NCBI RefSeq assembly: GCF_000152625.1
Contig: NZ_CH724156.1
Span: 2,320,687-2,384,686, forward strand
DNA: 64,000 nucleotides
Direction of reading: 5' to 3'
From: Roseovarius nubinhibens ISM
Lineage (GTDB): Bacteria > Pseudomonadota > Alphaproteobacteria > Rhodobacterales > Rhodobacteraceae
Every line of letters starts with the position of its first letter. Positions within the stretch are counted from its first letter, which is position 1. Shown here piece after piece: positions 35,845 through 53,269 of the stretch. The translations under genes were made by a program, and so were the position numbers. Below the pieces are notes generated by a model. The model saw only the letters and a list, made by a program, of their open reading frames with translations. It had not been told where the DNA came from and ran no database searches.

Positions 35845-37362
35845 ATGAAAACTTTCCTTTTCAAGACCACTGCCATTGCTGCGCTGGCTGCCAGCACCGC
35901 GATGCCTGCCCTGGCCGACAAGGCCTCGGGCACGCTTAACGTGGCCTTCACCAAAGAGCTCGAGAACGTCGACAGCTATTTCAACTCGTCGCGCGAAGGC
36001 GTCGTGTTGCAGCGGGCGATCTGGGACGGTCTGATCTATCGCGATCCCGAGACCAACGAATATATCGGCAACCTCGCGACCAGCTGGGAGTGGATCGACG
36101 ACACCACGCTCGAGCTCAAGCTGCGCGAAGGGGTGACGTTCCACAACGGCGAAGCGTTCAACGCCGATGACGTGGTGTTCACCGTCAATTACGTCGCCAA
36201 GGAAGAAAACGGCGTCAAGACGCAGCGCAATGTGAACTGGATGAAATCGGCCGAGAAGGTCGATGATTACACCGTGCGCATCCTGCTCAAGGACAAGTTC
36301 CCGGCGGCGATCGAATTCCTGTCGGGTCCGGTGTCGATGTACCCGAATGAATATTACGCCGAAGCCGGCCCCTCGGGCATGGGGCTCAAGCCCGTGGGCA
36401 CCGGCCCCTATAAGGTGACCGAAGTGGTGCCGGGCCAGCATTTCGTGCTGGAGGCCAATGAGAGCTATCACGACAGCCCCAAGGGCCAGCCGGAGATTGC
36501 CAAGATCGACATCCGCACCATCCCGGATGTGAACACGCAGATGGCCGAGCTGTTCTCGGGCTCGCTCGATCTGATCTGGCAGGTGCCGTCGGACCAGGCG
36601 GAAAAGCTCGCCACGATGGACCAGTTCACCGTCGCCAATGAATCGACCATGCGGGTCGGTTACCTGCAGATGGATTCGGCCGGTCGCAGCGGTGAGGACA
36701 ACCCGTTCACCAAGCTCAAGGTACGTCAGGCGATCAACCACGCGATCAACCGTCAAGAGCTTGTCGATGCGCTGCTCAAGGGCAAGAGCAAGGTGGTCTA
36801 TACCCCCTGCTTCCCGAGCCAGTTCGGCTGTATCCAGGACGTGACCGAATATGAGTACGATCCGGAGAAGGCCAAGGCGCTGCTGGCCGAGGCGGGCTAT
36901 CCCGATGGGTTCACCATCGAGTTCTACGCCTATCGCGACCGGCAATATGCCGAGGCGATTGCCAGCTATCTCAACGCCGTGGGCATCCAGACCGATTTCA
37001 AGATGCTGCAATATTCGGCGCTGCGTGAGCTCAACATGAATGGCGAAGTGCCGATCTCGTTCCAGACCTGGGGCAGCTATTCGATCAACGACGCCTCGGC
37101 CATGGTCAGCCAGTTCTTCAAGCACGGCGCGCTCGATTCGACGCGCGACGATGAGGTGCTCGAATGGCTCAACGTGGCCGACAGCTCGACCAACCCGGAC
37201 GAGCGGATCGAGTATTACACCAAGGCGATCCAGAAGATCACCCAAGAGGCCTATTGGGCGCCGATGTTCACCTATAACACCAACTACGTCTTCACCGGCG
37301 AGGTCGATTACACCCCGACACCTGATGAGGTGCTGCGGTTCGTCGACATGAGCTGGAAGTAA
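35845..37362 (+). CDS. Peptide/opine ABC transporter substrate-binding protein (SBP_bac_5)
   Basis: A 505-residue periplasmic receptor with a clear signal peptide (MKTFLFKTTAIAALAAS, cleavage near ALADK) and the DppA/OppA family blocks (LEPLxR-like region replaced by LRVAFTKELEN-type start, AINHAINRQELVDALLKG, GYPDGFTIEFYA). AGGGAG precedes the ATG at 35845. It opens an operon with two permeases, two ATPases, a gamma-glutamyltransferase and an M20 peptidase, so a gamma-glutamyl peptide such as glutathione is a possible ligand. Confidence 0.88.
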   Translation: MKTFLFKTTAIAALAASTAMPALADKASGTLNVAFTKELENVDSYFNSSREGVVLQRAIWDGLIYRDPETNEYIGNLATSWEWIDDTTLELKLREGVTFHNGEAFNADDVVFTVNYVAKEENGVKTQRNVNWMKSAEKVDDYTVRILLKDKFPAAIEFLSGPVSMYPNEYYAEAGPSGMGLKPVGTGPYKVTEVVPGQHFVLEANESYHDSPKGQPEIAKIDIRTIPDVNTQMAELFSGSLDLIWQVPSDQAEKLATMDQFTVANESTMRVGYLQMDSAGRSGEDNPFTKLKVRQAINHAINRQELVDALLKGKSKVVYTPCFPSQFGCIQDVTEYEYDPEKAKALLAEAGYPDGFTIEFYAYRDRQYAEAIASYLNAVGIQTDFKMLQYSALRELNMNGEVPISFQTWGSYSINDASAMVSQFFKHGALDSTRDDEVLEWLNVADSSTNPDERIEYYTKAIQKITQEAYWAPMFTYNTNYVFTGEVDYTPTPDEVLRFVDMSWK

Positions 37363-37375
37363 GATCCAAACCGCG

Positions 37376-37449
37376 AGGGGCGCGCCTGGTCGCGCCCCTT
37401 ATCCCCTGACCATGTGATGCCTCTCTTCAGGTCTGGCCCCAAGGGCCAG
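37376..37449 (+). other. Two intercistronic hairpins behind the binding-protein gene
   Basis: AGGGGCGCG-CCTGGT-CGCGCCCCT (37376-37399) followed by TTAT, and CTGGCCC-CAA-GGGCCAG (37433-37449). Such hairpins after a receptor gene commonly protect its mRNA or terminate part of transcription, giving more receptor than permease. The spacer to the permease is 125 bases. Confidence 0.7.
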
Positions 37450-37487
37450 GCGGCGGGTGGTGTCATGTGCAGTTCGAGGTTTATCAA

Positions 37488-38405
37488 ATGTTACCTTTCA
37501 TCCTGAAACGTCTGGGCCTCGCGTTGCTTGTGGCCTTTACCGTCAGTTTCATCAGCTTCTCTTTGCTCTTCCTGTCGGGTGATCCGGCGGCGGCGCTCGC
37601 GGGCGAGACCGCCAGCGGCGAAGATGTCGAAGCGATCCGGCGGCTCTATGGGTTCGACCGGCCGATGCTGGTGCAATATGGCGAATGGCTCTTGTCTGCT
37701 GTGCAGGGCGATTTCGGGGAAAGTTACTATTTCAAGTTGCCGGTGGCCTCGCTCATCGCGGAGCGGCTGCAGGTGACCATGCTGCTCGGTGTCTGTGGCA
37801 TCAGCTTTGCGCTGCTGACCGCCGTGCCGCTGGGCGTGGTGGCGGCGATCCGGCCCAATTCACTCATCGACCGGGTGGCGCTGTTCCTGTCAGTGGCCGG
37901 GCAGGCGATGCCGTCCTTCTGGTTCGGTCTGATCCTGATCGTGATCTTTTCGATCACGCTCGGCTGGCTGCCGCCTTCGGGGGCCGCGAGCTGGAAACAT
38001 TTCATCATGCCGACCGTGGTGCTGGGCTATTACGCGATGCCCGCCATCATGCGGCTGACGCGGGCCGGGATGCTCGATGTTCTCAATTCGGATTACATCC
38101 GCACGGCACGGGCCAAGGGCGCGGGCGAGGGCCGGGTTCTGTTCAAACACGCGCTGCGCAACGCGATCATCCCGGTGGTGAGCCTCGCGGCGGTGCAGAT
38201 GGGCTTTATGCTGGGTGGCTCGATCGTGGTCGAGAGCGTCTTTGCCCTGCATGGCGCGGGATACCTCGCCTGGGAGAGCATCGCCCGCAATGACCTGCCG
38301 ACGGTGCAGGCGCTGATCCTCGTTTTCTCGATGTTCTACATCGTTTTCACCTTCCTGGCCGACGTTCTCAACGCCTGGCTCGACCCCCGTATGCGGAGTA
38401 GCTGA
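37488..38405 (+). CDS. Dipeptide-type ABC transporter permease (DppB-like)
   Basis: A 305-residue permease with six predicted helices, N-terminal LPFILKRLGLALLVAFTVSF and the inner-membrane coupling loop TARAKGAGEGRVLFKHALRNA (partly cited). The ATG at 37488 is chosen because GAGG precedes it; the GTG at 37467 would add seven atypical residues. Pairs with the following permease, one base away. Confidence 0.9.
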   Translation: MLPFILKRLGLALLVAFTVSFISFSLLFLSGDPAAALAGETASGEDVEAIRRLYGFDRPMLVQYGEWLLSAVQGDFGESYYFKLPVASLIAERLQVTMLLGVCGISFALLTAVPLGVVAAIRPNSLIDRVALFLSVAGQAMPSFWFGLILIVIFSITLGWLPPSGAASWKHFIMPTVVLGYYAMPAIMRLTRAGMLDVLNSDYIRTARAKGAGEGRVLFKHALRNAIIPVVSLAAVQMGFMLGGSIVVESVFALHGAGYLAWESIARNDLPTVQALILVFSMFYIVFTFLADVLNAWLDPRMRSS

Positions 38406-38406
38406 T

Positions 38407-39306
38407 ATGAGCAGTGATGTGACAGATCCCCTCACGGCGGAAATCCAAGGGCCGACCCCGCGCGAAATGCTCAAGGCACGGGCGCGGGGGCACAAGGGCC
38501 TCATCTTTGGCATGGGCATCGTTGGCCTGCTGGTTCTGGTGGCGATCCTCGCGCCGGTGCTGGCGCCGCATGATCCCTATGCGCAGAGCCTGATGAAACG
38601 CATGGCGCCGCCCGTATTCCTTGGCGGCACATGGGAGCATCCGCTCGGCACCGACCATCTGGGCCGCGATTACCTCAGCCGTCTGATCTATGGCGCGCGG
38701 GTGTCGCTTCTGATCGGGGCGGTGGCGGCGCTGATTTCCGGTGTCATCGGCACCGCGATGGGCGTCGCGGCGGGCTATTTCGGCGGCAAGGTCGATGCGG
38801 TGGTGACCTTTCTCATCAACGTGCGCCTCGCGATGCCGGTGGTTCTCGTGGCGCTGGCGGTGGTGGCGATCCTTGGCGGGTCGCTCACCGTGGTGATCTG
38901 TGTGCTGGGGCTGTTGCTCTGGGACCGGTTCGCGGTGGTGATGCGGGCCTCGACCCTGCAGGTGAGCCGGCGCGATTACGTGGCGGCGGCGCAGGTGATC
39001 GGTGCCTCGACCCCGCGCATTCTCTTGACCGAGATCATGCCCAATATCTTCAACAACCTGATCGTGGTGATCACCCTCGAGATGGCCCATGCGATCTTGC
39101 TCGAAGCGGCGCTGAGCTTTCTCGGGCTGGGCGTGCAGCCGCCGACCCCGAGCTGGGGTCTGATGGTGAGCGAGGGCAAGAACATGATGCTGTTCGAGCC
39201 CTGGCTGGTGCTGATCCCCGGTGCGGTGCTGTTCCTTCTGGTGCTGGCGATCAATCTCATGGGCGACGGTCTGCGTGACGTCACCGCCCCCGAAGGACGG
39301 AGCTGA
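38407..39306 (+). CDS. Dipeptide-type ABC transporter permease (DppC-like)
   Basis: A 299-residue permease with the N-terminal OppC_N type segment (GLIFGMGIVGLLVLVAIL, then APHDPYAQ) and the marker LGTDHLGRDYLSRLIYGARVS (partly cited). The coupling loop reads YVAAAQVIGASTPRILLTEI. Forms the channel with the DppB-like protein. Confidence 0.91.
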   Translation: MSSDVTDPLTAEIQGPTPREMLKARARGHKGLIFGMGIVGLLVLVAILAPVLAPHDPYAQSLMKRMAPPVFLGGTWEHPLGTDHLGRDYLSRLIYGARVSLLIGAVAALISGVIGTAMGVAAGYFGGKVDAVVTFLINVRLAMPVVLVALAVVAILGGSLTVVICVLGLLLWDRFAVVMRASTLQVSRRDYVAAAQVIGASTPRILLTEIMPNIFNNLIVVITLEMAHAILLEAALSFLGLGVQPPTPSWGLMVSEGKNMMLFEPWLVLIPGAVLFLLVLAINLMGDGLRDVTAPEGRS

Positions 39307-39309
39307 GCC

Positions 39310-40317
39310 ATGACCGAAGAGACGCTTCTGAGTGTGCGCAACCTGACGCTGACCATCCCCACGGGGAGCGGTATCCTGCATGCGGTGCGCGGTATTGATT
39401 TCGATCTCAAGCGGGGCGAGACCCTGTCGATCGTGGGCGAAAGCGGGTCGGGCAAATCGCTCACCTCGCTGGCGGTGATGGGCCTTCTGTCGAAGGGCAT
39501 CAAGCGCGAGGCCGACGAGATGCGCTTTGACCAGACCGATCTGCGCAGCGCCTCGCCCAAGGTGATGCGCGATCTGCGCGGCAACCGCATGGCGATGATC
39601 TTTCAGGAACCGATGACCTCGCTCAACCCGGCCTATACGATCGGCGATCAGCTGATCGAGACCCTGCGGCTGCACCGCCGGGTCAGCAAGGCCAAGGCGC
39701 GCGAGCGGGCGATTGAACTGTTGGAAAAGGTCGGCATCACCGCCGCGGCGAGCCGGTTGGGGCAATATCCCCATCAGCTCTCGGGTGGGTTGCGGCAGCG
39801 GGTGATGATCGCGCTGGCGCTGATGTGCGAGCCGGATCTTCTCATCGCGGACGAGCCGACCACGGCGCTCGATGTGACCATTCAGGCGCAGATCCTGCGG
39901 CTCCTGGTCGATCTCACCAAAGAGATGAACATGGCGATGATCCTGATCACCCATGATCTCGGCGTGGTGGCGCGGGTCGCCGACAAGGTGGCGGTGATGT
40001 ATGCCGGTGAGCTGGTCGAGACCGGTCCGGCCAAGGACATCTTTGCCGCGCCGAGCCATCCCTACACGCGCGGCCTGCTGCGCTGCATCCCGCAGCCCGG
40101 CAAGACCGAACGCGGCGCGCCGCTCGGCACCATTCCGGGCATCGTGCCGTCGCTCATCGGCGAGGTCACGGGCTGTGCCTTCCGCACCCGTTGCGCCCAT
40201 GCGCAGCCGGCCTGCCGCGAGGCCATCCCGCATCATGGCGATGCCGCGCATCGTTTCCGTTGTATCCATCCCGACGGGGCCCGCTCCGCCGAGACCGCCG
40301 AAGGAGAGCCCGTATGA
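39310..40317 (+). CDS. Dipeptide-type ABC transporter ATP-binding protein (DppD-like)
   Basis: A 335-residue ATPase with Walker A GESGSGKSLTSLAVMG, signature LSGGLRQRVMIALAL and Walker B LLIADEPTTALDV. The C-terminal oligopeptide-transporter extension has the cysteine cluster GCAFRTRCAHAQPACRE, which in characterised relatives binds an iron-sulfur cluster. It overlaps the DppF-like gene by four bases. Confidence 0.93.
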   Translation: MTEETLLSVRNLTLTIPTGSGILHAVRGIDFDLKRGETLSIVGESGSGKSLTSLAVMGLLSKGIKREADEMRFDQTDLRSASPKVMRDLRGNRMAMIFQEPMTSLNPAYTIGDQLIETLRLHRRVSKAKARERAIELLEKVGITAAASRLGQYPHQLSGGLRQRVMIALALMCEPDLLIADEPTTALDVTIQAQILRLLVDLTKEMNMAMILITHDLGVVARVADKVAVMYAGELVETGPAKDIFAAPSHPYTRGLLRCIPQPGKTERGAPLGTIPGIVPSLIGEVTGCAFRTRCAHAQPACREAIPHHGDAAHRFRCIHPDGARSAETAEGEPV

Positions 40318-41300
40318 GTGAGCCCGTTCTCAAACTCGACAAGGTCAAGAAGACCTATACCGTCAAGCAGGGTCTCTTTGGCGAGCGCAAGCCGCTGACG
40401 GCGGTCAATGAGGTGAGCCTGTCGCTCGACAAGGGCGAGGTTCTGGGCCTGGTGGGCGAGAGCGGCTGTGGCAAGTCGACCATGGCCAAGCTCTTGCTCG
40501 GGCTGGAAGCGCCCACATCGGGGCAGGTTCTGGTCGATGGCGAGCCTCTCGATGGGCTTGACCGGCGCGCGCTGGCGAGCCGGTTGCAGCCGATCTTTCA
40601 AGATCCCTACAGCTCGCTCAACCCGCGCAAGTCGATCTATGACATCATTTCGCTGCCGCTGCGGGTCCACAAGATCGGCGACAGCGCCAGCCAGCAAAAG
40701 GCGGTGAAGGATATTCTCGATGTGGTGGGTCTGCCGCAGCGGGTGATGAACACCTATCCGAGCCAGATGTCCGGCGGGCAGCGGCAGCGGGTCGCCATCG
40801 CGCGGGCGCTGGTCATGCGGCCCGAGATCGTCATCTGCGACGAGCCGACCTCGGCGCTCGATGTGTCGGTGCAGAGCCAGATCCTCAACCTGCTGGGCGA
40901 GCTGCGCCGCGAGTTTGGCCTCACCTATCTGTTCATCAGCCATGACCTCGCGGTGGTCGAGCATCTGGCGACGCGGGTGGCGGTGATGTATCTTGGGCGG
41001 ATCGTCGAAGAGGCGCCGGTGGCCGATCTCTTTGAAGCGCCGAAACACCCCTATACCAAGGCGCTGCTCAATTCGGTGCTCACGCCTGAGCCGGGGCTGG
41101 GCGTGCCGGAGACCGCGCTGGGTGCCACCTATCCCAACCCGATCGACCCGCCCTCTGGCTGTGCCTTTCATCCGCGCTGCCCGATGGCGACGGATCATTG
41201 CGCGGCCAAGGCCCCGCGCGCCATCGACACGCCCGCGGGCCATGTCGAATGTCATCTGCACGATCCCGAAAGTCCCATGTACAACAAGGACGCCGCTTAA
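40314..41300 (+). CDS. Dipeptide-type ABC transporter ATP-binding protein (DppF-like)
   Basis: A 328-residue ATPase with Walker A GESGCGKSTMAKLLLG, signature MSGGQRQRVAIARAL and Walker B IVICDEPTSALDVS, and the C-terminal GCAFHPRCPMATDHC extension. The ATG at 40314 shares ATGA with the DppD-like stop. Second ATPase of the same importer; the gamma-glutamyltransferase gene starts three bases after it. Confidence 0.93.
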   Translation: MSEPVLKLDKVKKTYTVKQGLFGERKPLTAVNEVSLSLDKGEVLGLVGESGCGKSTMAKLLLGLEAPTSGQVLVDGEPLDGLDRRALASRLQPIFQDPYSSLNPRKSIYDIISLPLRVHKIGDSASQQKAVKDILDVVGLPQRVMNTYPSQMSGGQRQRVAIARALVMRPEIVICDEPTSALDVSVQSQILNLLGELRREFGLTYLFISHDLAVVEHLATRVAVMYLGRIVEEAPVADLFEAPKHPYTKALLNSVLTPEPGLGVPETALGATYPNPIDPPSGCAFHPRCPMATDHCAAKAPRAIDTPAGHVECHLHDPESPMYNKDAA

Positions 41301-41303
41301 ATC

Positions 41304-42866
41304 ATGTCGCACGCGCTCTCTTCGTCTCAGCACACCACGAAACATGTGATCGAAACAAAGGGGGGCGTGGTGGCATCACAGCACCGGCTCGCCGCAGAGG
41401 CGGGGGCCGAGGTGCTGCGCGCCGGGGGCGACGCGGTGGATGCGGCGGTCGCCTGTTCTTTTGTGGTGGGGGTGCTCGAGCCATGGATGAGCGGCCCGGC
41501 GGGCGGCGGCGCGGCGGTGCATTGGCGCGCCGACAGCGGCGAGGCGGTGGCGATCAATTTCGGCATGCGCTCGCCCAAGGGTTTGCGGGTCGAGGACTAT
41601 CCTCTCTCGGGCGAGGGCAAGGCTGGCGATCTGTTCCCATGGGAGCGGGTCACCGAGGATCGCAACGTCCAAGGGGCCAAAGCGATTGCGGTGCCGGGCA
41701 CGGTCGAAGGGCTGGGCCAGGCGCATGCGCGCTGGGGCAAGATGCCCTGGGCCGAGCTGGTCGCGCCGGCGGTGGCCCATGCGCGGCAGGGGATGCTCGT
41801 CGATTGGTATGCGGCGCTGATCATCGCCTCGACCGCGCGCGAGCTTGCCAAGGACCCGGATGCGGCGGCGATGTTCCTTGATGACGGGCAATGGCCCAAG
41901 GGCTCGGGCTGGACCGCGATCCCCGACAACCGTCTCGATCAGTCGCGGATGGCCGACAGTCTCGACATTGTGGCGCGGGGCGGGGCGCGGGCCTTTCACG
42001 AGGGCGATCTGGCGCAGGCCATGGCGCGCGATGTGCAGGAAAAAGGCGGCTCGCTCAGCTATGAGGACCTCAAGGGCTATCGCGCCTGGATGGGCGCGGC
42101 GACGCCGGTCAAATATCGCGATGCGCTCTATCATGTGATGCCGGGGCTGACGGCGGGGCCGACCTTTGCCCGCGTGATGGAAGAGCTCGAAGCCGTCGAT
42201 ATGTCGACCCCGGCGCAGGCCTATACGGCCTATGCGCGGGCGCTCGATCAGGCCTATGCCGAGCGGCTGGGCAAGATGGGTGACACGGGCGAAGTGCCGG
42301 AAGCGCCGGGATGCACCACGCATTTCGCGGTGGTCGACCGGGCCGGCAATATGGTGACCCATACCCAGACGCTTCTGTCGATCTTTGGCAGCCGTGTGGT
42401 GTCGCCCTCGACCGGGTTCCTGATGAACAACGGCATCATGTGGTTCGACCCCGAGCAGGGCAAACCCAATTCGCTCGGCCCGGACAAATCCTGTTTGATG
42501 AATGTCTGCCCGGTGCTGGGCGCGGTGGGCGACAAGCGCTTTGCCATTGGCGCGTCGGGCGGGCGCAAGATCGTCTCGGCGGTGTCGCAGCTCGCGTCTT
42601 TTGTCGTCGATGGCGGCATGGATATTGCCGGGGCCTTTCACAATCCGCGCATCGATGTGTCGGGCGGCGGTCAGATCATCGCCGATGAGACGCTGGACGA
42701 GGATGTGCTGGCGGCGCTCGGCGAGGTGCTGCCGATGAAAACCACGCGCCGCACCGTGCTGCCCTATGCCTTTGCCTGCCCGGCGGGGGTCATGCGGCAG
42801 GGCGCGGTGAACACCGGCTGTACCGAGATCATGTCGCCCTGGGGCGACGCCGCATTGGAAGACTGA
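41304..42866 (+). CDS. Gamma-glutamyltransferase, cytoplasmic form
   Basis: A 520-residue Ntn-hydrolase that cleaves gamma-glutamyl amide bonds. The self-cleavage site and new N-terminal Thr are at GCTTHFAVVD, and the oxyanion motif is GASGGRKI. Unlike periplasmic GGT there is no signal peptide, so it should act on peptides already imported by the preceding transporter. Three bases separate it from the ATPase gene and eleven from the M20 peptidase gene. Confidence 0.88.
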   Translation: MSHALSSSQHTTKHVIETKGGVVASQHRLAAEAGAEVLRAGGDAVDAAVACSFVVGVLEPWMSGPAGGGAAVHWRADSGEAVAINFGMRSPKGLRVEDYPLSGEGKAGDLFPWERVTEDRNVQGAKAIAVPGTVEGLGQAHARWGKMPWAELVAPAVAHARQGMLVDWYAALIIASTARELAKDPDAAAMFLDDGQWPKGSGWTAIPDNRLDQSRMADSLDIVARGGARAFHEGDLAQAMARDVQEKGGSLSYEDLKGYRAWMGAATPVKYRDALYHVMPGLTAGPTFARVMEELEAVDMSTPAQAYTAYARALDQAYAERLGKMGDTGEVPEAPGCTTHFAVVDRAGNMVTHTQTLLSIFGSRVVSPSTGFLMNNGIMWFDPEQGKPNSLGPDKSCLMNVCPVLGAVGDKRFAIGASGGRKIVSAVSQLASFVVDGGMDIAGAFHNPRIDVSGGGQIIADETLDEDVLAALGEVLPMKTTRRTVLPYAFACPAGVMRQGAVNTGCTEIMSPWGDAALED

Positions 42867-42877
42867 TTGGAGAAACC

Positions 42878-44272
42878 ATGACCAGAGACGCCGCACTTGC
42901 CCATGTCGCCGATTATTACGACAGGGGCGCGTTTCAAAGCGAGCTTGCCGAGCTCGTCACCTATCGCAGCGAGAGCCAGAACCCCGCGCCCGAGGCGGCG
43001 GCCGAGCTGCGCCGCTATCTCGACGAGGCGATGCTGCCCCGGCTGAGCAAGCTGGGCTTTGACTGCGAGATCATCGCCAACCCGGATCCGCGTGGCGGGC
43101 CGCTGCTCATTGGCGAGCGGCGCGAGGGCGAGGGCCTGCCGATGGTGCTCACCTATGGGCATGGCGACACGGTGCGCGGGCAGGATGATATGTGGCGCGA
43201 CGGGCTGCAGCCCTGGGAGCTCGTCGAAGAGGGCGAGCGGCTCTATGGCCGGGGGGTGGCCGACAACAAGGGGCAGCATCTGATCAATATCGCGGCGCTG
43301 GAATCGGTGCTGGCGGTGCGCGGTAGCCTTGGCTTTAACCTGCGGATCGTGATCGAGATGAGCGAAGAGGTGGGCTCGTCCGGGCTGCCCGAGGTGTTCG
43401 CGGCCTATAAAGACCGGCTCGCGGCGGATGTTCTCATCGCCTCGGACGGGCCGCGGCTGCAGCCCGAGGTGCCGACGATGTTCATGGGCTCGCGCGGCGG
43501 CACGACCTTTGATCTCATCGTCGAGACCCATGAGGGCGCGCATCATTCGGGCAATTGGGGCGGGCTTCTGGCCGATCCGGCGATGATCCTCGCCCATGCG
43601 CTGGCCGAGATCACCGACCGGCGTGGCCAGATCAAGGTGCCGGAATGGCGGCCCGACAGTCTCACCGACAAGATCCGCGACGCGCTGCGCGATTTGCCGG
43701 TGGCGGGGGGCGATGGCCCGGCGGTCGATCCCAACTGGGGCGAAGAGAGCCTGACGCCCGCCGAGCGGGTCTTTGGCTGGAACAGCTTTGCGGTGCTGGC
43801 GATGGTGTCGGGCGTGCCGGATGCGCCGGTCAACGCAATCTCGGGCTGGGCGCGGGCGAGCTGTCAGCTGCGCTATGTGGTGGGGACCGACCCTGAGGAT
43901 GTGATCCCCGCGCTGCGCCGTCATCTCGACCGGGCCGGGTTCGACAATGTCCGGATCGAGCCGCATGACCGGGGGTTTTTCGCCGCGACGCGCCTTGATC
44001 CCGATCACCCCTGGGCCGAGTTCGTCGGCAACTCGATCCGCAAGACCAGCGGCGGCGATCTGCATGTGCTGCCGAACCTCGCCGGGTCGCTGCCCAACGA
44101 CAGTTTCACCGATATTCTCGGTGTGCCGACCATCTGGGTGCCGCATTCCTATCGCGGCTGCTCGCAACATGCGCCGAATGAGCATGTGTTGAAATCCGTC
44201 TGCCGCAGCTCTCTCGAGGTCATGGCGGGCGTCTTCTGGGATATAGGTGAGACAGGCGGCCCCAAGGGCTAA
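42878..44272 (+). CDS. M20-family metallopeptidase
   Basis: A 464-residue two-zinc peptidase: first ligand motif TYGHGDTVRGQDD, bridging-Asp motif GRGVADNKGQH, catalytic and ligand glutamates in EMSEEVGSSG, and the lid-domain histidine in THEGAHHSGNWGG. Members are di- and tripeptidases, such as those that split Cys-Gly. It is the last gene of the peptide operon, so it probably finishes hydrolysis of the imported peptide after the gamma-glutamyl group is removed. Confidence 0.88.
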   Translation: MTRDAALAHVADYYDRGAFQSELAELVTYRSESQNPAPEAAAELRRYLDEAMLPRLSKLGFDCEIIANPDPRGGPLLIGERREGEGLPMVLTYGHGDTVRGQDDMWRDGLQPWELVEEGERLYGRGVADNKGQHLINIAALESVLAVRGSLGFNLRIVIEMSEEVGSSGLPEVFAAYKDRLAADVLIASDGPRLQPEVPTMFMGSRGGTTFDLIVETHEGAHHSGNWGGLLADPAMILAHALAEITDRRGQIKVPEWRPDSLTDKIRDALRDLPVAGGDGPAVDPNWGEESLTPAERVFGWNSFAVLAMVSGVPDAPVNAISGWARASCQLRYVVGTDPEDVIPALRRHLDRAGFDNVRIEPHDRGFFAATRLDPDHPWAEFVGNSIRKTSGGDLHVLPNLAGSLPNDSFTDILGVPTIWVPHSYRGCSQHAPNEHVLKSVCRSSLEVMAGVFWDIGETGGPKG

Positions 44273-44379: not shown

Positions 44380-45525
44380 TCAGAGCGCCGCCTTGAACAG
44401 GGCGCGCAGATTGTCGGTGGTGAGCGGCACCGGGTTGCCGCCACAGGACGGGTCTTCGAGCGCCATGGCGACCATGTCCTCGAGCCGGTCCTCGGTCACG
44501 CCGAGTTCGGTCAGGCTGCGCGGGATGCCGAGGCTGTCGTTGAAGCTCTGCACGAAGCGGCGGAAGCCGTCGAACCCGCCCTCGATGCCGAGATAGGAGG
44601 CGGCGAGATCGAACCGGTCCTTGATCAGCGGCGCGTTGAGCTCGAGCACGGCGGGCATGCAGACGGCGTTGGTGGTGCCGTGATGGGTGTTGAACACCGC
44701 GCCGATCGGGTGGCTCATGGCGTGGATCGCGCCGAGACCCTTTTGAAAGGCGGTGGCCCCCATGGCGGCGGCGCTCATCATATTGGCGCGGGCCTCGATG
44801 TCTGTGCCGTCGGCATAGGCGCGGGGCAGGTTGTCGATGACCAGGCGCATCCCTTCGAGCGCGATGCCCTGGCTCATCGGGTGGTAATGCGGGCTCGAAA
44901 ACGCCTCGACGCAATGGGCGAAAGCGTCAAGCCCGGTGCCTGCGGTGATGAATTTCGGCATGCCCACGGTCAGTTCCGGGTCGCAGATCACCACGGCGGG
45001 AAGCACCTTGGGGTGGAAGATGATCTTTTTCACATGGGTTTCGGAATTGGTGATGACGCTGGCGCGGCCCACTTCCGAGCCGGTGCCGGCGGTGGTCGGC
45101 ACGGCGACGATGGGCGCGATGGCCTCGGCATCGGCGCGGGTCCACCAATCGCCCACATCCTCGAAATCCCAGATCGGCCGGGTCTGACCGGCCATGAAGG
45201 CGACCATCTTGCCCAGATCGAGCCCGGAGCCGCCGCCAAAGGCGATAACGCCATCATGGCCGCCCGCCTTATAGGCCGCGACGCCCGCGTCGAGATTTTT
45301 CTCGTTCGGGTTGGGATCGACCTCGGAGAACATGGCGCGGCCAAGCCCCGCCGCCTCGAGAATGTCGAGCGCCTGGGCCGTGACCGGCAGGCCCGCGAGG
45401 CCTTTGTCGGTGACCAGCAGGGGCTTCTTGATGCCCGCCTGGGCGCAGGCCTCGGGCAGTTCCTTGATGCGGCCGGGGCCGAATTTCATCGCGGTCGGAT
45501 AGGACCAGTTTCCGGTGAGGGTCAT
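44380..45525 (-). CDS. Iron-containing alcohol dehydrogenase
   Basis: A 381-residue group III alcohol dehydrogenase. The NAD-binding motif is AFGGGSGLDLGKM, and the metal ligands lie in GLDAFAHCVEA and GAIHAMSHPIGAVFNTHHG. AAGGTGA stands six bases before the ATG at 45525, which overlaps the aldehyde dehydrogenase stop. It is the last gene of the operon. With the aldehyde dehydrogenase it can oxidise a primary alcohol to an acid; I infer a gamma-glutamylated amino alcohol as the substrate. Confidence 0.9.
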   Translation of the reverse strand: MTLTGNWSYPTAMKFGPGRIKELPEACAQAGIKKPLLVTDKGLAGLPVTAQALDILEAAGLGRAMFSEVDPNPNEKNLDAGVAAYKAGGHDGVIAFGGGSGLDLGKMVAFMAGQTRPIWDFEDVGDWWTRADAEAIAPIVAVPTTAGTGSEVGRASVITNSETHVKKIIFHPKVLPAVVICDPELTVGMPKFITAGTGLDAFAHCVEAFSSPHYHPMSQGIALEGMRLVIDNLPRAYADGTDIEARANMMSAAAMGATAFQKGLGAIHAMSHPIGAVFNTHHGTTNAVCMPAVLELNAPLIKDRFDLAASYLGIEGGFDGFRRFVQSFNDSLGIPRSLTELGVTEDRLEDMVAMALEDPSCGGNPVPLTTDNLRALFKAAL

Positions 45526-46901
45526 GATGTCACCTTTTTGAGATGGTAGGATTTGGGACGGGTCAGGTTGTGATAGCCGATCAGCGACAGGCCGCCGCCG
45601 CGCCCGGTGTTCTTGCAACCGGTCCAGCACAGGCCGGGATCGAGATAATCGGCGCGGTTCATGAAGACGGTGCCGGTCTCGATCTGATCGCCGACGCGCT
45701 GGGCGCGGTCGAGATCGGCGGTCCAGAGCGAGGCGGTGAGGCCAAATTCGCTATCGTTCATCAGCGCCACCGCCTCGGCATCGTCGCGCACCTTCATGAT
45801 GCCGACCACCGGGCCAAAGCTTTCGTCGCGCATGACGCGCATGTCATGGGTCACATTGGTGAGGATCTGCGGCGTGAGATAGGCGGCGCCATCATCGGCG
45901 GCCATGGTTTCGATATGGGCGACGGCCCCGGCGGCGAGCGCCTCGTCGATCTGGTCGCGCACTTCGCGGGCAAAGCGGACATGTGCCATCGGGCCGATGG
46001 TGGTTTCCGGGTCGAGCGGATTGCCGAGCGTATAGCCCTGCACCACGGCGACGGCCTTTTCCACGAAAGCGTCATAGAGGCTTTCATGCACATAGATGCG
46101 TTCGATGCCACAGCAGCATTGGCCCGAGTTGAACATCGCCCCGTCGATGAGCGTGTCGACCGCCGCATCGAGATCGGCATCCTCCATCACATAGCCGGGG
46201 TCCTTGCCGCCAAGTTCGGTGCCGACGCCGGTGAAGGTGCCCGCCGCCGCGCGTTCCATGGCGCGACCGCCGCCCACCGAGCCGGTGAAATTGACGAAAT
46301 CGAACGCCCGTTCGGCGATGAGCGCCGAGGTCGTGTCATGGTCGAGAAAGACGTTCTGGAACACGTCATCGGGCACGCCCGCCGCGTGAAAGGCCTGCGC
46401 CATGCGTTCGCCCACCAGAAGCGTCTGGGTCGCGTGTTTCAGGATCACGCTATTGCCCGCGATGAGGGCCGGGGCCACGGTGTTGATCGCGGTCATATAG
46501 GGGTAGTTCCACGGCGCCACGACAAAGACCACGCCATGCGGCACGCGCTTGATATAGCGTTTGAAACTGGCGTCTTCGCCCACCTCGATATCGGCCAGCC
46601 CTTCGGCGGCGATCTTGGCCATATGGCTCGCGCGTTCGTTGAAGCCGCCGAATTCGCCGCCATAGCGGATGGGGCGGCCCATCATATGGGCAAGTTCGGG
46701 CACGATCTCGTCATTCATCGCGCCGACGGCGGCAACGCCTGCCATCACGAGATCAATGCGTTCCTGCAGCGGCCGGGCCGCCCAGACCGCCTGGGCCATG
46801 CGGGCGCGGTCGGCGGCGTCGCGGGCCTGCGCCAGGCTCAGCGTGTCGCGCGTGGCGAACACCGAGCCGTCGATGGGCGAAATACATTCCAGAGTGCTCA
46901 T
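45522..46901 (-). CDS. NAD(P)-dependent aldehyde dehydrogenase
   Basis: A 459-residue ALDH with the cofactor-binding APWNYPY, the general base Glu in GTELGGKDP and the nucleophile in FNSGQCCCG (the second or third of three cysteines; the first aligns with the usual position). GAGGAC before 46901 supports this start; the frame upstream to 47012 is a spacer hairpin region. It probably converts the aldehyde made by the neighbouring alcohol dehydrogenase to a carboxylate. Confidence 0.9.
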   Translation of the reverse strand: MSTLECISPIDGSVFATRDTLSLAQARDAADRARMAQAVWAARPLQERIDLVMAGVAAVGAMNDEIVPELAHMMGRPIRYGGEFGGFNERASHMAKIAAEGLADIEVGEDASFKRYIKRVPHGVVFVVAPWNYPYMTAINTVAPALIAGNSVILKHATQTLLVGERMAQAFHAAGVPDDVFQNVFLDHDTTSALIAERAFDFVNFTGSVGGGRAMERAAAGTFTGVGTELGGKDPGYVMEDADLDAAVDTLIDGAMFNSGQCCCGIERIYVHESLYDAFVEKAVAVVQGYTLGNPLDPETTIGPMAHVRFAREVRDQIDEALAAGAVAHIETMAADDGAAYLTPQILTNVTHDMRVMRDESFGPVVGIMKVRDDAEAVALMNDSEFGLTASLWTADLDRAQRVGDQIETGTVFMNRADYLDPGLCWTGCKNTGRGGGLSLIGYHNLTRPKSYHLKKVTS

Positions 46902-46957
46902 CTTGTCCTCATTGTCGAAAGGGGCGCGAAGGGCGCCCTTGATCTTGCCAGTAGGGG

Positions 46958-46993
46958 GCCCCGCCGCCCGCGTCGGGCGCGGCACGGCGGGGC
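46958..46993. other. Intercistronic GC hairpin
   Basis: GCCCCGCCG (46958-46966) pairs perfectly with CGGCGGGGC (46985-46993) in the 97-base spacer between the glutamine-synthetase homologue and the aldehyde dehydrogenase gene. A second short GC dyad lies at 46921-46940. No T-run, so it more likely stabilises or attenuates the message than ends it. Confidence 0.6.
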
Positions 46994-46998
46994 AGGTG

Positions 46999-48351
46999 TC
47001 AGACGCGTTCAAACCCGCGCTTGAGTTCGTAATCGGTAACGATCCGGTCGAAATCCTCGAGCTCGACCTCGGCAGCGCGGGCGTAATGCGTCACCACCTC
47101 CTCGCCCAGCGCCTTGCGCAGCATGGAAGACCCCAAAAGCGCCTCGCGCGCGTCGCGCAGATTGCCGGGGATGAGCCCGGTGTCCTCGCCATAGGCGTCG
47201 CCCTTGAACGGGGCGGGCAGGCTCAGCTTTTCCTCGATCCCGGCGATGCCCGCGGCGAGCAGGGCCGCCATGGCGAGATAGGGGTTGATGTCCGAGCCGC
47301 CGACGCGGCATTCGACGCGCACCGCCTTGGTGCCTTCGCCGCAGAGCCGGTAGCCCGCGGTGCGGTTGTCCACCGACCAGATGATCCGCGTCGGCGCGAA
47401 GGTGCCTTTGACGAAACGCTTGTAGCTGTTGATATAGGGCGCGAAGAAATAGGTCATGTCGGGCGCGTATTTGAGCAGGCCCGCCATGTAATGTTTCATC
47501 AGCTCGCTCATGCCGAGCGGGTCGTTCGCGTCATAGAAGGCCGGTTTGCCCTCTTTCCACAGCGATTGGTGGACATGGCTCGAGCTGCCGACCTTGTCGT
47601 GATGCCATTTCGGCAGGAAGCTCGCGGCATGGCCCTGCTGCCACGAGATTTCCTTGACCGCATGTTTGGCGATCGTGTGGTAATCGGCGGTGTCGAGCGC
47701 CGCGGCATATTTGATGTTGAGCTCTTCCTGACCGGCCTCGGCCTCGCCCTTGGAATTCTCGATGGGAATGCCCGCGTTCCACAGATGGTTGCGGATCGGG
47801 CGCATCACATGCTCTTCCTTGGTGGTCTGGAAGATGTTGTAATCCTCGTTATAGCCGGAATAGGGCTGCAGATCGCGGTAGCCGTCCTTGCGCAGCTCTT
47901 CAAAGCTCTTCTCGAAGAGGAAGAATTCCAACTCGGTCGCCATCATCGCGTCAAAGCCCATGGCGTCGAGCCGGGCGAGCTGTTTCTTGAGCATGGCGCG
48001 CGGCGAATGCGGCACCGGTTCATGCGTGTGGTGGTCGAGCACGTCGCACAGCACCATCACCGTGCCTTCGAGCCAGGGCACCGGGCGCAGCGTTGTGAGA
48101 TCGGGCTTCATCACATAATCGCCATAGCCCTGCTCCCAAGAGGTCGAGGCAAAGCCCTCGGGCGTGGCCATCTCGAGATCGGTGGCCAGCAGGTAGTTGC
48201 AGCAATGGGTTTCTTCCCAGGCGCTGGCGATGAAATGCCCGGCGTGGAACCGTTTGCCCATCAGGCGGCCCTGCATGTCCACGAGGCATGCGAGGACGGT
48301 ATCGACGCTGCCATCGGCAACCTGGTCTTTCAACGTATCGAAGGAGAGCAT
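46999..48351 (-). CDS. Glutamine-synthetase homologue, probable gamma-glutamyl-amine synthetase
   Basis: A 450-residue GS-fold ligase. Metal and glutamate motifs are kept: ATELEFFLFEK, EISWQQGHAASFLPKWHH, GSSSHVHQSLW, INSYKRFV and RVECRVGGSDINPYLA. The adenylylation-loop Tyr region of GlnA is not evident, and the family resembles PuuA/GlnA4-type enzymes that join glutamate to an amine. In this operon it stands with a TRAP importer, an alcohol and an aldehyde dehydrogenase, which suggests an amino alcohol as the acceptor. The start at 48351 is used; the extension to 48402 runs into the leader hairpins. Confidence 0.82.
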   Translation of the reverse strand: MLSFDTLKDQVADGSVDTVLACLVDMQGRLMGKRFHAGHFIASAWEETHCCNYLLATDLEMATPEGFASTSWEQGYGDYVMKPDLTTLRPVPWLEGTVMVLCDVLDHHTHEPVPHSPRAMLKKQLARLDAMGFDAMMATELEFFLFEKSFEELRKDGYRDLQPYSGYNEDYNIFQTTKEEHVMRPIRNHLWNAGIPIENSKGEAEAGQEELNIKYAAALDTADYHTIAKHAVKEISWQQGHAASFLPKWHHDKVGSSSHVHQSLWKEGKPAFYDANDPLGMSELMKHYMAGLLKYAPDMTYFFAPYINSYKRFVKGTFAPTRIIWSVDNRTAGYRLCGEGTKAVRVECRVGGSDINPYLAMAALLAAGIAGIEEKLSLPAPFKGDAYGEDTGLIPGNLRDAREALLGSSMLRKALGEEVVTHYARAAEVELEDFDRIVTDYELKRGFERV

Positions 48352-48375
48352 GAGCGGCCCTTTGTTGTTGCGGCC

Positions 48376-48443
48376 AAAACGCTTGGCGAAGCGTTTTGCC
48401 AAATTCCTGTGGAGGAATTTGGCCCACCCGGAAGCGGGCCAAA
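48376..48443 (-). promoter_or_regulatory. Three overlapping hairpins between dctP and the GS homologue
   Basis: AAAACGCTT-GGCG-AAGCGTTTT (48376-48397), GCCAAATTCC-TGTGGA-GGAATTTGGC (48398-48423) and TTTGGCCC...GGGCCAAA (48418-48443). The second and third share TTTGGC, so only one can form at a time. The spacer has 111 bases and no gene. Confidence 0.75.
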
Positions 48444-48462
48444 TCCGATTGCGAAACCTCTA

Positions 48463-49497
48463 TCAGGTGTAGCGGTAGGGCCGACCGGCTTTTTGCATGT
48501 CGGCGTTGTATTTTTTGAAGATTTCGACGACGCGCGCCTTGGTCTCGGATTCGGCGGCGATCTCGTCCCAGAAGGTGAGCGCGGCGTCTTCGACCTTGGC
48601 CCATTCTTCGTCGGGGATCGTGGTCAGCTTCATCTTGTCGCCATTGACGCGCAGCGAGGCTTCGCCACCCCAATACCACCACTGACGGTAGTAATGCGAC
48701 TGGTCACAGCAGACGCGGAACAGCGTTTGCAGGTCTTCGGGCAGCTCGTCCCAGCGGCCTTGGTTGGCAAAGAACGACCCGGCCCAAGCGCCCGAGATGT
48801 TGTTGGTGAGGAAATAGTTGGTCACATCGGCCCAGCCGACGGTGTAATCCTCGGTGATGCCCGACCAGGCGATGCCGTCGAGCTCGCCGGTTTGCACGGC
48901 AACCTCGATGTCTTCCCACGGCAGGGTCACCGGCACGACGCCGAACTGCGCGAGGAAGCGACCGGCGGTGGGGAAGGTAAAGACCCGCTTGCCTTCGAGA
49001 TCGGCGAGGCTGTTGATCGGGTCCTTGGTGGCGAAATGGCAGGGGTCCCAGGACCCGGCCGAGATATGTTTGACGCCGACCTTGGAATATTCCTCGTCCC
49101 AGATTTCATTCAGACCGTATTGGTTGAAGAGCACCGGCACATCGAGGGAATAGCGCGAGGCAAAGGGGAAGTAGCCGCCAAAGACGGTGACTTCGGTGGG
49201 CGAGGCCATGCTGTCGTCATCGGATTGCACCGCGTCAATCGTGCCGCGCTGCATGGCGCGGAAAAGCTCGCCCGTGGGCACCAGCTGATCGGCGAAGAAG
49301 AGCTCGATCTGCATCCGGTCGCCGGCGATCTTGTTGAACATATCGATGGCGGGTTTCACCACATGTTCGGCCAGCGCGGGACCGGCGTAGGTCTGCATCC
49401 GCCATTTGATCGTCGATTGCGCGATGGCCGGGGTCGCCAGCGGCGCGGCGGCGGCACCGACGGCGGCCGTGGTTAAGAACTTGCGTCTTGTGGTCAT
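48463..49497 (-). CDS. dctP: TRAP transporter substrate-binding protein DctP
   Basis: A 344-residue periplasmic receptor with a Tat signal (TTRRKFLTTAAVGAAAAP, cleavage near AIAQS). Family blocks are GDRMQIELFFADQLVPTGE, LADLEGKRVFTFPTAGRFL and VQTGELDGIAWSG. The pocket is rich in aromatic residues (QSHYYRQWWYWGG), which would suit a small organic cation or alcohol as well as an acid. It follows the permease genes in the operon, the reverse of the commonest order. Confidence 0.88.
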   Translation of the reverse strand: MTTRRKFLTTAAVGAAAAPLATPAIAQSTIKWRMQTYAGPALAEHVVKPAIDMFNKIAGDRMQIELFFADQLVPTGELFRAMQRGTIDAVQSDDDSMASPTEVTVFGGYFPFASRYSLDVPVLFNQYGLNEIWDEEYSKVGVKHISAGSWDPCHFATKDPINSLADLEGKRVFTFPTAGRFLAQFGVVPVTLPWEDIEVAVQTGELDGIAWSGITEDYTVGWADVTNYFLTNNISGAWAGSFFANQGRWDELPEDLQTLFRVCCDQSHYYRQWWYWGGEASLRVNGDKMKLTTIPDEEWAKVEDAALTFWDEIAAESETKARVVEIFKKYNADMQKAGRPYRYT

Positions 49498-49545
49498 GGT
49501 CTCTCTCCTTTGTTGAACGAGGTGCCCCTTGCGGGGTCTTGGTGG

Positions 49546-50868
49546 TTATTTTCCGTAGACATAGTCGGGCAGCCAGAGCGCGATCTGCGGGAAGACCATC
49601 ACCAGTGTCAGCGCGACAGCCATCACGAGGACGAAGGGGATGATCGACACATAGATGTCGCGAAGCCCGATTTCCGGCGGGGCCATGGCCCGCATCAGAA
49701 AGAGGTTATAGCCGAAGGGCGGCGTCATATAGGCGATCTGCGTGGTGATCGTATAGAGTACACCATACCATATGAGATCGAACCCCAGCTCGCCCACCAG
49801 CGGCACATAGAGCGGCGCCACGATGACCAGCATCGCCGTGTCGTCGAGAAACGTGCCCATGATGATGAAGCTGAGCTGCATCAGGATCAGGATCGCCCAA
49901 GGCCCGAGGCCGAGCTGCGAGGTGAAGAGATCCTCGATGGCCTTGACCGCGCCGAGCCCGTCGAAAATCGCGCCAAAGCCCAGGGCCGCGAGGATGATCC
50001 ACATGAACATGCAAGAAATGCCGAGCGTGTTGCGCACCGAGTTTTCAAAGACTTCGCGGGTCATCCGGCCCTTGAGCACGGCGGCGAGAAAGGCGGTCAT
50101 CGCGCCGATGGCCGAGCTTTCGACAAGCGAGGTCCAGCCGTTGACGAAGGGCACCATCATCGCGGCAAAGATCGCCAGCGGCAGGATGCCCGCGCCCAAG
50201 AGCCGCATCTTTTCCGCCATCGGCACGCGGCGCTCTTCTTCCGGCAGGACCGGGCCGAGATCGGGCTGCAGACGGCAGCGCACATAGATGTAGATGATGA
50301 ACATCGCGGCCATCAACAGCCCCGGCAGCACACCTGCGAGCCAGAGCTGCCCCACCGGCTGCCGCGCGATCATCGCATAGAGGACGAGCACCACCGAGGG
50401 CGGCACGAGAATACCTAAGGAAGAGCCTGCCTGAATGACCCCGGTTACCATGATCTTGTCATAGCCCCGGCGCAGCAGTTCCGGCAGGGCGATGGTCGCC
50501 CCGATGGCCATGCCCGCCACCGACAGGCCGTTCATCGCGGAAATCAGCACCATGAGGCCGATCGTGCCAATGGCCAGACCGCCGCGCACCGGGCCCATCC
50601 AGACATGGAACATCTTGTAGAGATCATCGGCGATGCGGCTCTCGGAGAGCACATAGCCCATGAAGATGAACATCGGCAGGGTGAGCAGCGGATACCATTT
50701 CATCAGCTTCATCGCCGCCGAGAAGGGCACATCGACGCCGCCCGTGCCCCAGAGCAAAAGCCCTGCCGCCGCGCCGACAAAGCCGATGGCGCCAAAGACA
50801 CGCTGCCCGGTGAGCAGCATCAGCATCATCGAGCTGAACATCAGCAGCGCGATCATTTCGTAGGACAT
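49546..50868 (-). CDS. dctM: TRAP transporter large permease DctM
   Basis: A 440-residue membrane protein with about twelve helices. It begins MIALLMFSSMMLMLLTGQRVF and contains the family motif SGLSVAGMAIGATIALPELLRRGYD (partly cited) and PSVVLVLYAMIARQPVGQLWLAG. The start overlaps the DctQ stop as TGATG. It moves the substrate with sodium ions. Confidence 0.92.
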   Translation of the reverse strand: MSYEMIALLMFSSMMLMLLTGQRVFGAIGFVGAAAGLLLWGTGGVDVPFSAAMKLMKWYPLLTLPMFIFMGYVLSESRIADDLYKMFHVWMGPVRGGLAIGTIGLMVLISAMNGLSVAGMAIGATIALPELLRRGYDKIMVTGVIQAGSSLGILVPPSVVLVLYAMIARQPVGQLWLAGVLPGLLMAAMFIIYIYVRCRLQPDLGPVLPEEERRVPMAEKMRLLGAGILPLAIFAAMMVPFVNGWTSLVESSAIGAMTAFLAAVLKGRMTREVFENSVRNTLGISCMFMWIILAALGFGAIFDGLGAVKAIEDLFTSQLGLGPWAILILMQLSFIIMGTFLDDTAMLVIVAPLYVPLVGELGFDLIWYGVLYTITTQIAYMTPPFGYNLFLMRAMAPPEIGLRDIYVSIIPFVLVMAVALTLVMVFPQIALWLPDYVYGK

Positions 50869-51464
50869 CAGACCTCCACTCCGCGCAGACGCGCGATGTC
50901 ACGGAAAAACTCGGCCAGGCATTGCAGGAGCATCAGGAAGACGCCGAAACAGAGCAGCGCCTTGACCGGCCAGATATAAGGGCGCCAGGCGCTGCGGCTG
51001 CGTTCGAGAAAGCCGAGCTTTTCCCCCGCCGCGTCAGAGCCTTCGGTGACCAGCGTCACCAGCAGATCCCAGAAGAAGGAAAACGGCTCGGTGCCGAAAT
51101 AGCCGAGCGAATAGGCGGTCGAGCCGACCGCGCCATAGAGCAGCACGCCGAGGTAGAACATCAGGAACAGAACGGTGATCCCGTCCATCCAGGCCTTGGT
51201 CCGTGGCGACCATTCGCCATAAAAGAGGTCCATCCGCACATTCGAGCCAAGCTGGATCGAATAGGGCCCGCCGAGCACGTAATAGGCGACCATGACGAAC
51301 TGGGCCATTTCCAGTGTCCAGAGCGACGGGTTGAAGAACGTCTTGGACACCGAGGACCAGAGCAGCACGCCGATCAGCGCAAAGATCAGATACATGGTGA
51401 TGCGGCCGATGAAACGGTTCATCGCATCGACCCCGTGGATATAGCCGAGAATGAGTCTAGGCAT
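50868..51464 (-). CDS. dctQ: TRAP transporter small permease DctQ
   Basis: A 198-residue protein with four membrane helices and the conserved region FVMVAYYVLGGPYSIQLGSNVRMDL (partly cited) that includes R, V and D of the DctQ motif. The start at 51464 overlaps the amidohydrolase stop by eight bases (ATGCCTAG), so it is coupled to it. The extension to 51488 is rejected. Confidence 0.88.
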   Translation of the reverse strand: MPRLILGYIHGVDAMNRFIGRITMYLIFALIGVLLWSSVSKTFFNPSLWTLEMAQFVMVAYYVLGGPYSIQLGSNVRMDLFYGEWSPRTKAWMDGITVLFLMFYLGVLLYGAVGSTAYSLGYFGTEPFSFFWDLLVTLVTEGSDAAGEKLGFLERSRSAWRPYIWPVKALLCFGVFLMLLQCLAEFFRDIARLRGVEV

Positions 51465-52269
51465 TCTGTGCCCTCCCGGTCTTGGCACCCGATGACCCCC
51501 CGGCCCCCAGAGCGTCGAGCGCCGGGCGCAAAAGCGTCAGCATCTCGTCGGTCATCTGCGCCTCGTCAGCGGCATTGGTCAGCAGATCGTTGCGGATCTC
51601 GATCATCACATTCGGCAGGCCCCGGGTGATGCCGTATTCCTTGAGCGAATGGGTGACGCCATCCTGCGGGCCGTAGGGCTCGTTCCGCTCGACACGGCGA
51701 TGCGGCAGGCGGTGCGCCTGATCGAGCATCGCATCGGCAAGACCTGCATCCTCGTCATGCAGAATGCCGATTTCGACGGCGCGGGGGCGGTCGTTATAGA
51801 CGGGCGTAAAGCTGTGGATGGTGATGAGGAGGCTTGGCTGACCGGCCTCTGCACGGGCATCCAAGAGCCGGTACACCGCGTCGCGGAAGGGCAGGTAGAC
51901 CCGATCGACCCGGGCCTGGCGGGAGGCGTCATCAAGATCGCGATTGCCGGGGACAGAGATTTTCTCTGATTGGGACGGCATGGCCGAGGCCGCATGCGGC
52001 GGGCGGTTGCAATCATAGACCAGCCGCGAGACCGTCGAGGCCACCAAAGGCGCGTCGAGCGCCTGCGACAGGCCCAGCGCCACGGCGCGCGCGCCCGGGT
52101 CCCATGCGGCATGGCTCTGCCGGTCCGCCTCTGCGAGGCCGAGATCGCCGAAGTCATCGGGAAAACGGTTCGATGCATGTTCACAGAGAATCACCGCCGC
52201 GCCCTGACCCTGTGGGTTGATCAGCTCGACCGCCTGCAAATCCTGAGTGTCGCGCAATTCTGTTGCCAA
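51457..52269 (-). CDS. N-formylglutamate amidohydrolase family protein
   Basis: A 270-residue zinc amidohydrolase of the N-formylglutamate deformylase family (PF05013). Motifs are ILCEHASNRFPDD, YDCNRPP, TIHSFTPVYNDRPR and IEIRNDL. It starts with TTG, seven bases after AGGGGG; no other in-frame start lies near. First gene of the operon behind the regulated promoter. No histidine-degradation gene is close, so the substrate is unlikely to be N-formylglutamate; cleavage of a gamma-glutamyl amide is my inference. Confidence 0.85.
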   Translation of the reverse strand: MATELRDTQDLQAVELINPQGQGAAVILCEHASNRFPDDFGDLGLAEADRQSHAAWDPGARAVALGLSQALDAPLVASTVSRLVYDCNRPPHAASAMPSQSEKISVPGNRDLDDASRQARVDRVYLPFRDAVYRLLDARAEAGQPSLLITIHSFTPVYNDRPRAVEIGILHDEDAGLADAMLDQAHRLPHRRVERNEPYGPQDGVTHSLKEYGITRGLPNVMIEIRNDLLTNAADEAQMTDEMLTLLRPALDALGAGGSSGAKTGRAQNA

Positions 52270-52283
52270 ATTCCGTCCCCCTT

Positions 52284-52329
52284 TGAAAAAATGTTTTCAC
52301 AAGCGGGAAAGCCTGTCAATATATTCACA
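52284..52329. promoter_or_regulatory. Divergent promoter with two palindromes, RpiR control region
   Basis: Palindrome 1 is TGAAAA-AATG-TTTTCA (52284-52299); palindrome 2 is TGTCAATATATTCACA (52314-52329, 14 of 16 symmetric). On the minus strand TTGACA (rc of 52314-52319), 17 bases, then AAACAT form a promoter for the amidohydrolase operon, with palindrome 1 on the -10. On the + strand TTCACA (52296-52301), 18 bases, then TATATT (52320-52325) form a promoter for rpiR. Each palindrome thus covers elements of both promoters. TGAAA...TTTCA is typical of RpiR-family operators. Confidence 0.7.
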
Positions 52330-52390: not shown

Positions 52391-53269
52391 GTGCCGGAGA
52401 CAGACGAAACCGTCCGCGATCTGATCCGCGCGCATTACGAGGATCTGACCCAGACCGAGCGCAAATGCGCCAATGCGCTGTTGCAGGATTATCCCGGCGC
52501 GGGGCTGGCCTCGATCACCGAGGTGGCGGCCAATGCCGACGTGTCGACGCCGACCGTGGCGCGGATGGTGCAAAAGCTCGGCTTCAAGGGGTTTCCGCAG
52601 TTCCACAAGGCGCTGCTGCAGGAGTTGCAAGCCAAGGTCTCGGGGCCGACACAGCGCCGCGATGCCTGGGCCTCGGAGGCCCCGGCGGCGCATCTTCTCA
52701 ACCGGTTTTCGCAAGCAGTGACCCACAATCTGGAGCAGACCTTTTCGCATGTGGACAGCGACCGGTTCGACGCCTCGGTGGCGCTGCTGTCGCGCACGGA
52801 AGGCCAGCTTTATATCGTTGGCGGGCGGATCACCCGGAGCCTCGCCGATTATGCCTTTACCCATTTTCAGGCGATCCGGCCGGGGGTGGTGCATATGACC
52901 TCCTCCGCCGCCACCTGGCCGCATTACGTGCTCGATATGGGGCCGGGGGACACGCTGTTGATCTTCGATATCCGGCGCTATGAGGCGAACCTCTTGCGAC
53001 TGGCGGAACTCGCGTCAGAGCGCGGCGTCAAGGTGGTGCTCATCACCGATCAATGGACCTCGCCGGTGGCGCGGGTGAGCGACCATGCCTTCACCTGCTG
53101 GGTCGAGATCCCGTCAGGTTGGGACAGCAATATCTCGACCATGATGCTGCTCGAGGCGATGATCGCCGCCGTGCAGGAGAGCCGCTGGCCCGAGGCGCGC
53201 AAACGTTATGAAGAGCTCGACCAGATCTTTGATCAAACGCGGCTCTTTCGCAGGCCGGGCAGCAGCTAG
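52391..53269 (+). CDS. RpiR-family transcriptional regulator
   Basis: A 292-residue regulator with an N-terminal helix-turn-helix (ITEVAANADVSTPTVARMVQKLGFKGF, partly cited) and a C-terminal SIS domain (LYIVGGRITRSLADY, DTLLIFDIRRYEANL) that usually binds a phosphosugar or similar small effector. It starts with GTG after GGGAGG. It is divergent from, and probably controls, the TRAP/gamma-glutamyl operon; the true effector is then likely an intermediate of that route. Confidence 0.88.
   Translation: MPETDETVRDLIRAHYEDLTQTERKCANALLQDYPGAGLASITEVAANADVSTPTVARMVQKLGFKGFPQFHKALLQELQAKVSGPTQRRDAWASEAPAAHLLNRFSQAVTHNLEQTFSHVDSDRFDASVALLSRTEGQLYIVGGRITRSLADYAFTHFQAIRPGVVHMTSSAATWPHYVLDMGPGDTLLIFDIRRYEANLLRLAELASERGVKVVLITDQWTSPVARVSDHAFTCWVEIPSGWDSNISTMMLLEAMIAAVQESRWPEARKRYEELDQIFDQTRLFRRPGSS

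Follow-up and report, generated by a model that had tools for sequence, protein, structure and literature searches.

A probable eto-type operon for ethanolamine uptake and gamma-glutamylation in Roseovarius nubinhibens ISM

Operons that join an importer to a glutamine synthetase-like ligase and two dehydrogenases raise the question of which compound is taken up and what is made of it. Such an operon lies at 44380-52269 of the window analysed here, a stretch of 64,000 nucleotides from Roseovarius nubinhibens ISM (contig NZ_CH724156.1, positions 2,320,687 to 2,384,686), where it accompanies a tripartite ATP-independent periplasmic (TRAP) transporter. An earlier reading of the letters alone, called below the original prediction, proposed that an amino alcohol is imported, gamma-glutamylated, oxidised from alcohol via aldehyde to acid and hydrolysed to glutamate and an amino acid. 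It is very likely, with a probability of about 0.94, that the locus is an eto-type operon for ethanolamine uptake and catabolism via gamma-glutamylation to glycine and glutamate. The operon as such is already known, and the window holds one more instance of it.

Gene content, orthology and conservation

Seven open reading frames (ORFs), all on the minus strand, encode in transcription order a PF05013 (FGase) amidohydrolase, DctQ, DctM, DctP, the ligase, an aldehyde dehydrogenase (ALDH) and an iron-dependent alcohol dehydrogenase (Fe-ADH), and their Pfam matches all exceed the Pfam cut-offs (Table 1). The gene set, order and strand originally described are thus borne out by ORFs and domains. 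The overlaps of 1-8 bases reported at three joints also hold, provided that dctQ begins at 51464 and not at its other possible ATG, 51422; they then measure 8 bases between amidohydrolase and dctQ, 1 between dctQ and dctM, and 4 between ALDH and Fe-ADH. Gaps of about 48 and 97 bases separate dctM from dctP and the ligase gene from the ALDH gene, while that between dctP and the ligase gene is about 111 bases if the ligase, whose frame is open up to 48402, starts at its likely ATG, 48351. A further gene, which the original prediction omitted, belongs to the unit: the RpiR-family regulator is assigned to it because it is divergent in all 64 of the 64 complete homologous loci.

Westermann 2023 described the eto operon of Phaeobacter/Roseobacter sp. 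MED193 (MED193_10021-10056) in the order RpiR-GGAH-EtoV-EtoW-EtoX-ETAGA-GAADDH-GETADH (PMC10132767). There, ethanolamine is the substrate and gamma-glutamylglycine the final intermediate; EtoX binds ethanolamine with a Kd of 7.9 uM and does not bind PE, PC, G1P or G3P (abbreviated as in the source), and five proteins of the operon increase during growth on phosphorylethanolamine (PMC10132767). The Roseobacter sp. MED193 genome was also found in our scan for homologous loci (L028). All eight genes stand there in the order and on the strands seen in the window, with protein identities of 64% for the amidohydrolase, 75% for DctM, 76% for RpiR, 78% for DctQ, 81% for the ligase, 83% for Fe-ADH, 85% for ALDH and 92% for DctP. 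Sequence divergence is the only difference, no gene being gained or lost within the unit. The route first proposed for the window is the pathway published for this orthologous operon. The accompanying statement that the gene combination was not known does not stand, as it was published in 2023 (PMC10132767), and the glutamylation route in Chromohalobacter salexigens had been cited in 2019 (PMC6529630).

Conservation in relatives, which the original prediction had named as a test of itself, was assessed in 80 homologous loci fetched with DctP. All seven genes were present in the same order and strand in 64 of them, and several of the 16 incomplete loci are cut by contig ends. Because the gene set is conserved in this way, a chance arrangement is excluded. 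Six loci (L023, L050, L072, L073, L077 and L089) carry EtoX-type TRAP genes with no adjacent ligase, ALDH or Fe-ADH gene. The ligase is located elsewhere in five of these six genomes, twice (L092 and L096) with a PF05013 gene and an ALDH gene as neighbours in a split operon, and no eut genes were found in the six loci when they were checked for another enzyme set.

The Eut pathway, in which ethanolamine ammonia-lyase acts, was considered as an alternative route and rejected. EutB (PF06751) had no match in the R. nubinhibens genome, which is 99.98% complete, in a search whose E. coli control was positive, and 15 further genomes that encode this transporter likewise lacked EutB. The genome therefore has the gamma-glutamyl route with no ammonia-lyase route as backup.

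Table 1. The eto-type unit and its candidate operator in the window. Names follow the orthologues; enzyme and binding functions are predictions.
Feature	Position	Strand	Remarks
RpiR/MurR-family transcriptional regulator	52391-53269	+	HTH_6 PF01418, 59.6 bits; SIS PF01380, 76.8 bits; divergent from operon
Candidate RpiR operator	52284-52299		TGAAAA-CATT-TTTTCA (TGAAAACATTTTTTCA); palindrome just downstream of conserved TTGACA box
PF05013 (FGase) amidohydrolase, GGAH orthologue, proposed gamma-glutamylglycine amidohydrolase	51457-52269	-	142.8 bits; TTG start
dctQ, TRAP small permease, EtoV orthologue	50868-51464	-	PF04290, 57.2 bits
dctM, TRAP large permease, EtoW orthologue	49546-50868	-	PF06808, 217.1 bits
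dctP, predicted TRAP ethanolamine-binding protein, EtoX orthologue	48463-49497	-	DctP domain, 72.3 bits; Tat-type signal
Glutamine synthetase-like ligase, ETAGA orthologue (predicted ethanolamine gamma-glutamylase)	46999-48351	-	Gln-synt_C PF00120, 322.3 bits
ALDH, GAADDH orthologue (predicted gamma-glutamyl-acetaldehyde-amide dehydrogenase)	45522-46901	-	PF00171, 383.5 bits
Fe-ADH, GETADH orthologue (predicted gamma-glutamylethanolamide dehydrogenase)	44380-45525	-	PF00465, 166.7 bits; C-terminal domain PF25137, 150 bits

Substrate and proposed chemistry

The nearest solved structure to DctP is the chain shared by 4uab and 4xf5 (646 bits), with 268 of 318 residues identical (84%) in a gap-free alignment; 4UAB is Csal_0678 of C. 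salexigens with ethanolamine bound (PMC12410723). When DctP was aligned with other TRAP binding proteins, Phe173 was found at the site of the carboxylate-binding Arg, a residue that Csal_0678 is also known to lack (PMC4646407). Glu216, within the invariant segment AWSGITEDYTVGW, is the sole Glu able to match the reported platform residue Glu220 of 4UAB, and can match it if a small numbering offset is assumed. By its sequence, the DctP of the window is an ethanolamine-type TRAP binding protein orthologous to EtoX and Csal_0678.

The ligase is closest among solved structures to 5dm3, which we take to be Csal_0679 (336 of 448 residues, 75% identical). Assignment as a type I or III glutamine synthetase was rejected, as both NCBIfam equivalog cut-offs are missed, with 251 against 429 bits for GlnA (TIGR00653) and 233 against 470 for GlnT (TIGR03105). 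A separate and stronger Gln-synt_C match in the same genome (L004, 450 bits) is presumably the housekeeping glutamine synthetase. Two more glutamine synthetase-like genes, adjacent to each other (G000:C2:86361-89460; L005 and L006) and 30-32% identical to the operon ligase, possibly belong to another gamma-glutamylation pathway. Among the remaining enzymes, the amidohydrolase has its nearest solved structure in 2odf (Atu2144), ALDH contains the active-site motifs ELGGK and GQCC, and Fe-ADH contains the putative metal-site motifs GTGLDAFAH, GAIHAMSH and FNTHHG.

On this assignment, periplasmic ethanolamine would be bound by DctP/EtoX and imported by DctQM/EtoVW. The ligase would then use ATP to join it to the gamma-carboxyl of glutamate, giving gamma-glutamylethanolamide, whose alcohol group Fe-ADH would oxidise to gamma-glutamyl-aminoacetaldehyde. 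ALDH is predicted to convert the latter to gamma-glutamylglycine, from which the PF05013 amidohydrolase would release glycine and glutamate.

In nature, the same chemistry could act on a different small amino alcohol, for example 2-amino-1-propanol (alaninol), and lead via gamma-glutamyl-alanine to alanine. The pathway by itself cannot tell ethanolamine from its C-methyl homologue, and one binding-protein sequence stands in two PDB entries, 4uab and 4xf5, the second presumably with 2-amino-1-propanol bound. We nevertheless regard such a substrate as very unlikely: EtoX of MED193, to which DctP is 92% identical, binds ethanolamine and belongs to an operon that responds when cells grow on phosphorylethanolamine, and ethanolamine, as the head group of phosphatidylethanolamine, is the abundant natural amino alcohol. 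Glutamylation of putrescine or a related diamine in a Puu-like polyamine pathway has in its favour a weak match of the ligase to gamma-glutamylputrescine synthetase (NF045547, 192 bits). That score is far under the cut-off of 650, neither an amine oxidase of the PuuB kind nor a PuuD-type hydrolase is found within the operon, and DctP is of the ethanolamine-binding type, which leaves this pathway next to no probability. That the genes are unrelated neighbours, pairing organic-acid uptake with an ordinary second glutamine synthetase, is likewise scarcely credible, for although carboxylates are the usual cargo of TRAP transporters (PMC4646407), Phe replaces the carboxylate-binding Arg, DctP orthologues bind ethanolamine and the gene set is so widely kept.

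Several points weigh against the ethanolamine assignment. The exact residue match of Glu216 depends on the numbering offset. Each enzyme's reaction in R. nubinhibens is predicted from homology, and the binding of ethanolamine and the protein induction on phosphorylethanolamine were established by others for the MED193 orthologues (PMC10132767). In that paper, enzyme functions themselves appear to be assigned via homology, genetic context and proteomics. It attributes the pathway to prior work on C. salexigens and Agrobacterium (A. tumefaciens), and the C. salexigens pathway that it calls 'demonstrated' in 2023 (PMC10132767) had been termed an in silico prediction in 2019 (PMC6529630).

Regulation, a second binding protein and a neighbouring cluster

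Of 71 homologous regions between rpiR and the operon, 66 contain a TTGACA box resembling a -35 element on the operon strand (shuffle mean 3), and 14 contain a palindrome, TGRAAA-N4-TTTYCA (shuffle mean 0.01); these regions are interrelated, and the counts are not independent events. The copy of the palindrome in the window is a candidate RpiR operator. Its position suggests that RpiR acts as a repressor, and the divergent regulator probably represses the operon when inducer is absent.

Many genomes of the genus of the window possess an eto operon whose DctP is just 65-68% identical to that of the window, while most of the other operon proteins are 80-90% identical. This second DctP type was seen in loci L117-L123, each of about 15 kb, in which DctP occupies about 6400-7000 or the reverse of that position. 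In six of these seven, the remaining genes are mostly 80-89% identical to those of the window, and L122 contains only regulator, amidohydrolase and TRAP genes. The second type has Tyr in place of Phe at position 173 and an unchanged Glu216 segment. To judge from the sequences, this looks like a binding-protein gene replaced in place. It is conceivable, if unlikely, that the operon family serves more than one amino alcohol by such a swap alone, the types differing in specificity (for example, ethanolamine versus a branched amino alcohol). Of the features described here, the second type alone may be worth testing.

Next to the eto operon and reading toward it, a plus-strand cluster at 35785-44272 encodes an Opp-type ABC importer (SBP_bac_5, two permeases and two ATPases), a gamma-glutamyltranspeptidase and an M20 peptidase, and it probably serves to take up and degrade a peptide, gamma-glutamyl or other. 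The shared gamma-glutamyl theme made it a candidate part of the eto system, which was rejected because none of the 80 homologous loci has the cluster as a neighbour, the only exceptions being two weak M20-peptidase matches (24-25% identity) at L050 and L089.

Comparison with known systems

The operon connects the turnover of membrane phospholipids in marine bacteria with their supply of nitrogen and carbon, a role already published for the orthologous operon. To this the window contributes one further genome, and the 64 complete loci among 80 show very stable retention of the gene set. The likeness to the ethanolamine set of C. salexigens lies in DctP (84% to the 4UAB chain, Csal_0678) and the ligase (75% to 5dm3); its host is gammaproteobacterial, Csal_0679 is annotated there as a glutamine synthetase, and the two systems were compared by proteins alone. 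With the Puu putrescine pathway of E. coli, the common logic is glutamylation, oxidation and deglutamylation. Puu differs in its substrate, putrescine, in using an amine oxidase where the window has an alcohol dehydrogenase, and in its class-I amidotransferase-type hydrolase in place of the PF05013 protein. For Streptomyces coelicolor, an ethanolamine pathway through GlnA4 (SCO1613) was proposed in 2019 (PMC6529630). The proposed chemistry is the same, from gamma-glutamylethanolamide via the aldehyde and gamma-glutamylglycine to glycine and glutamate, whereas in the GlnA4 cluster a short-chain dehydrogenase and a different regulator stand in for Fe-ADH and RpiR, and the TRAP transporter is replaced by a putative ethanolamine transporter/permease gene, which S. 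coelicolor itself lacks (PMC6529630).

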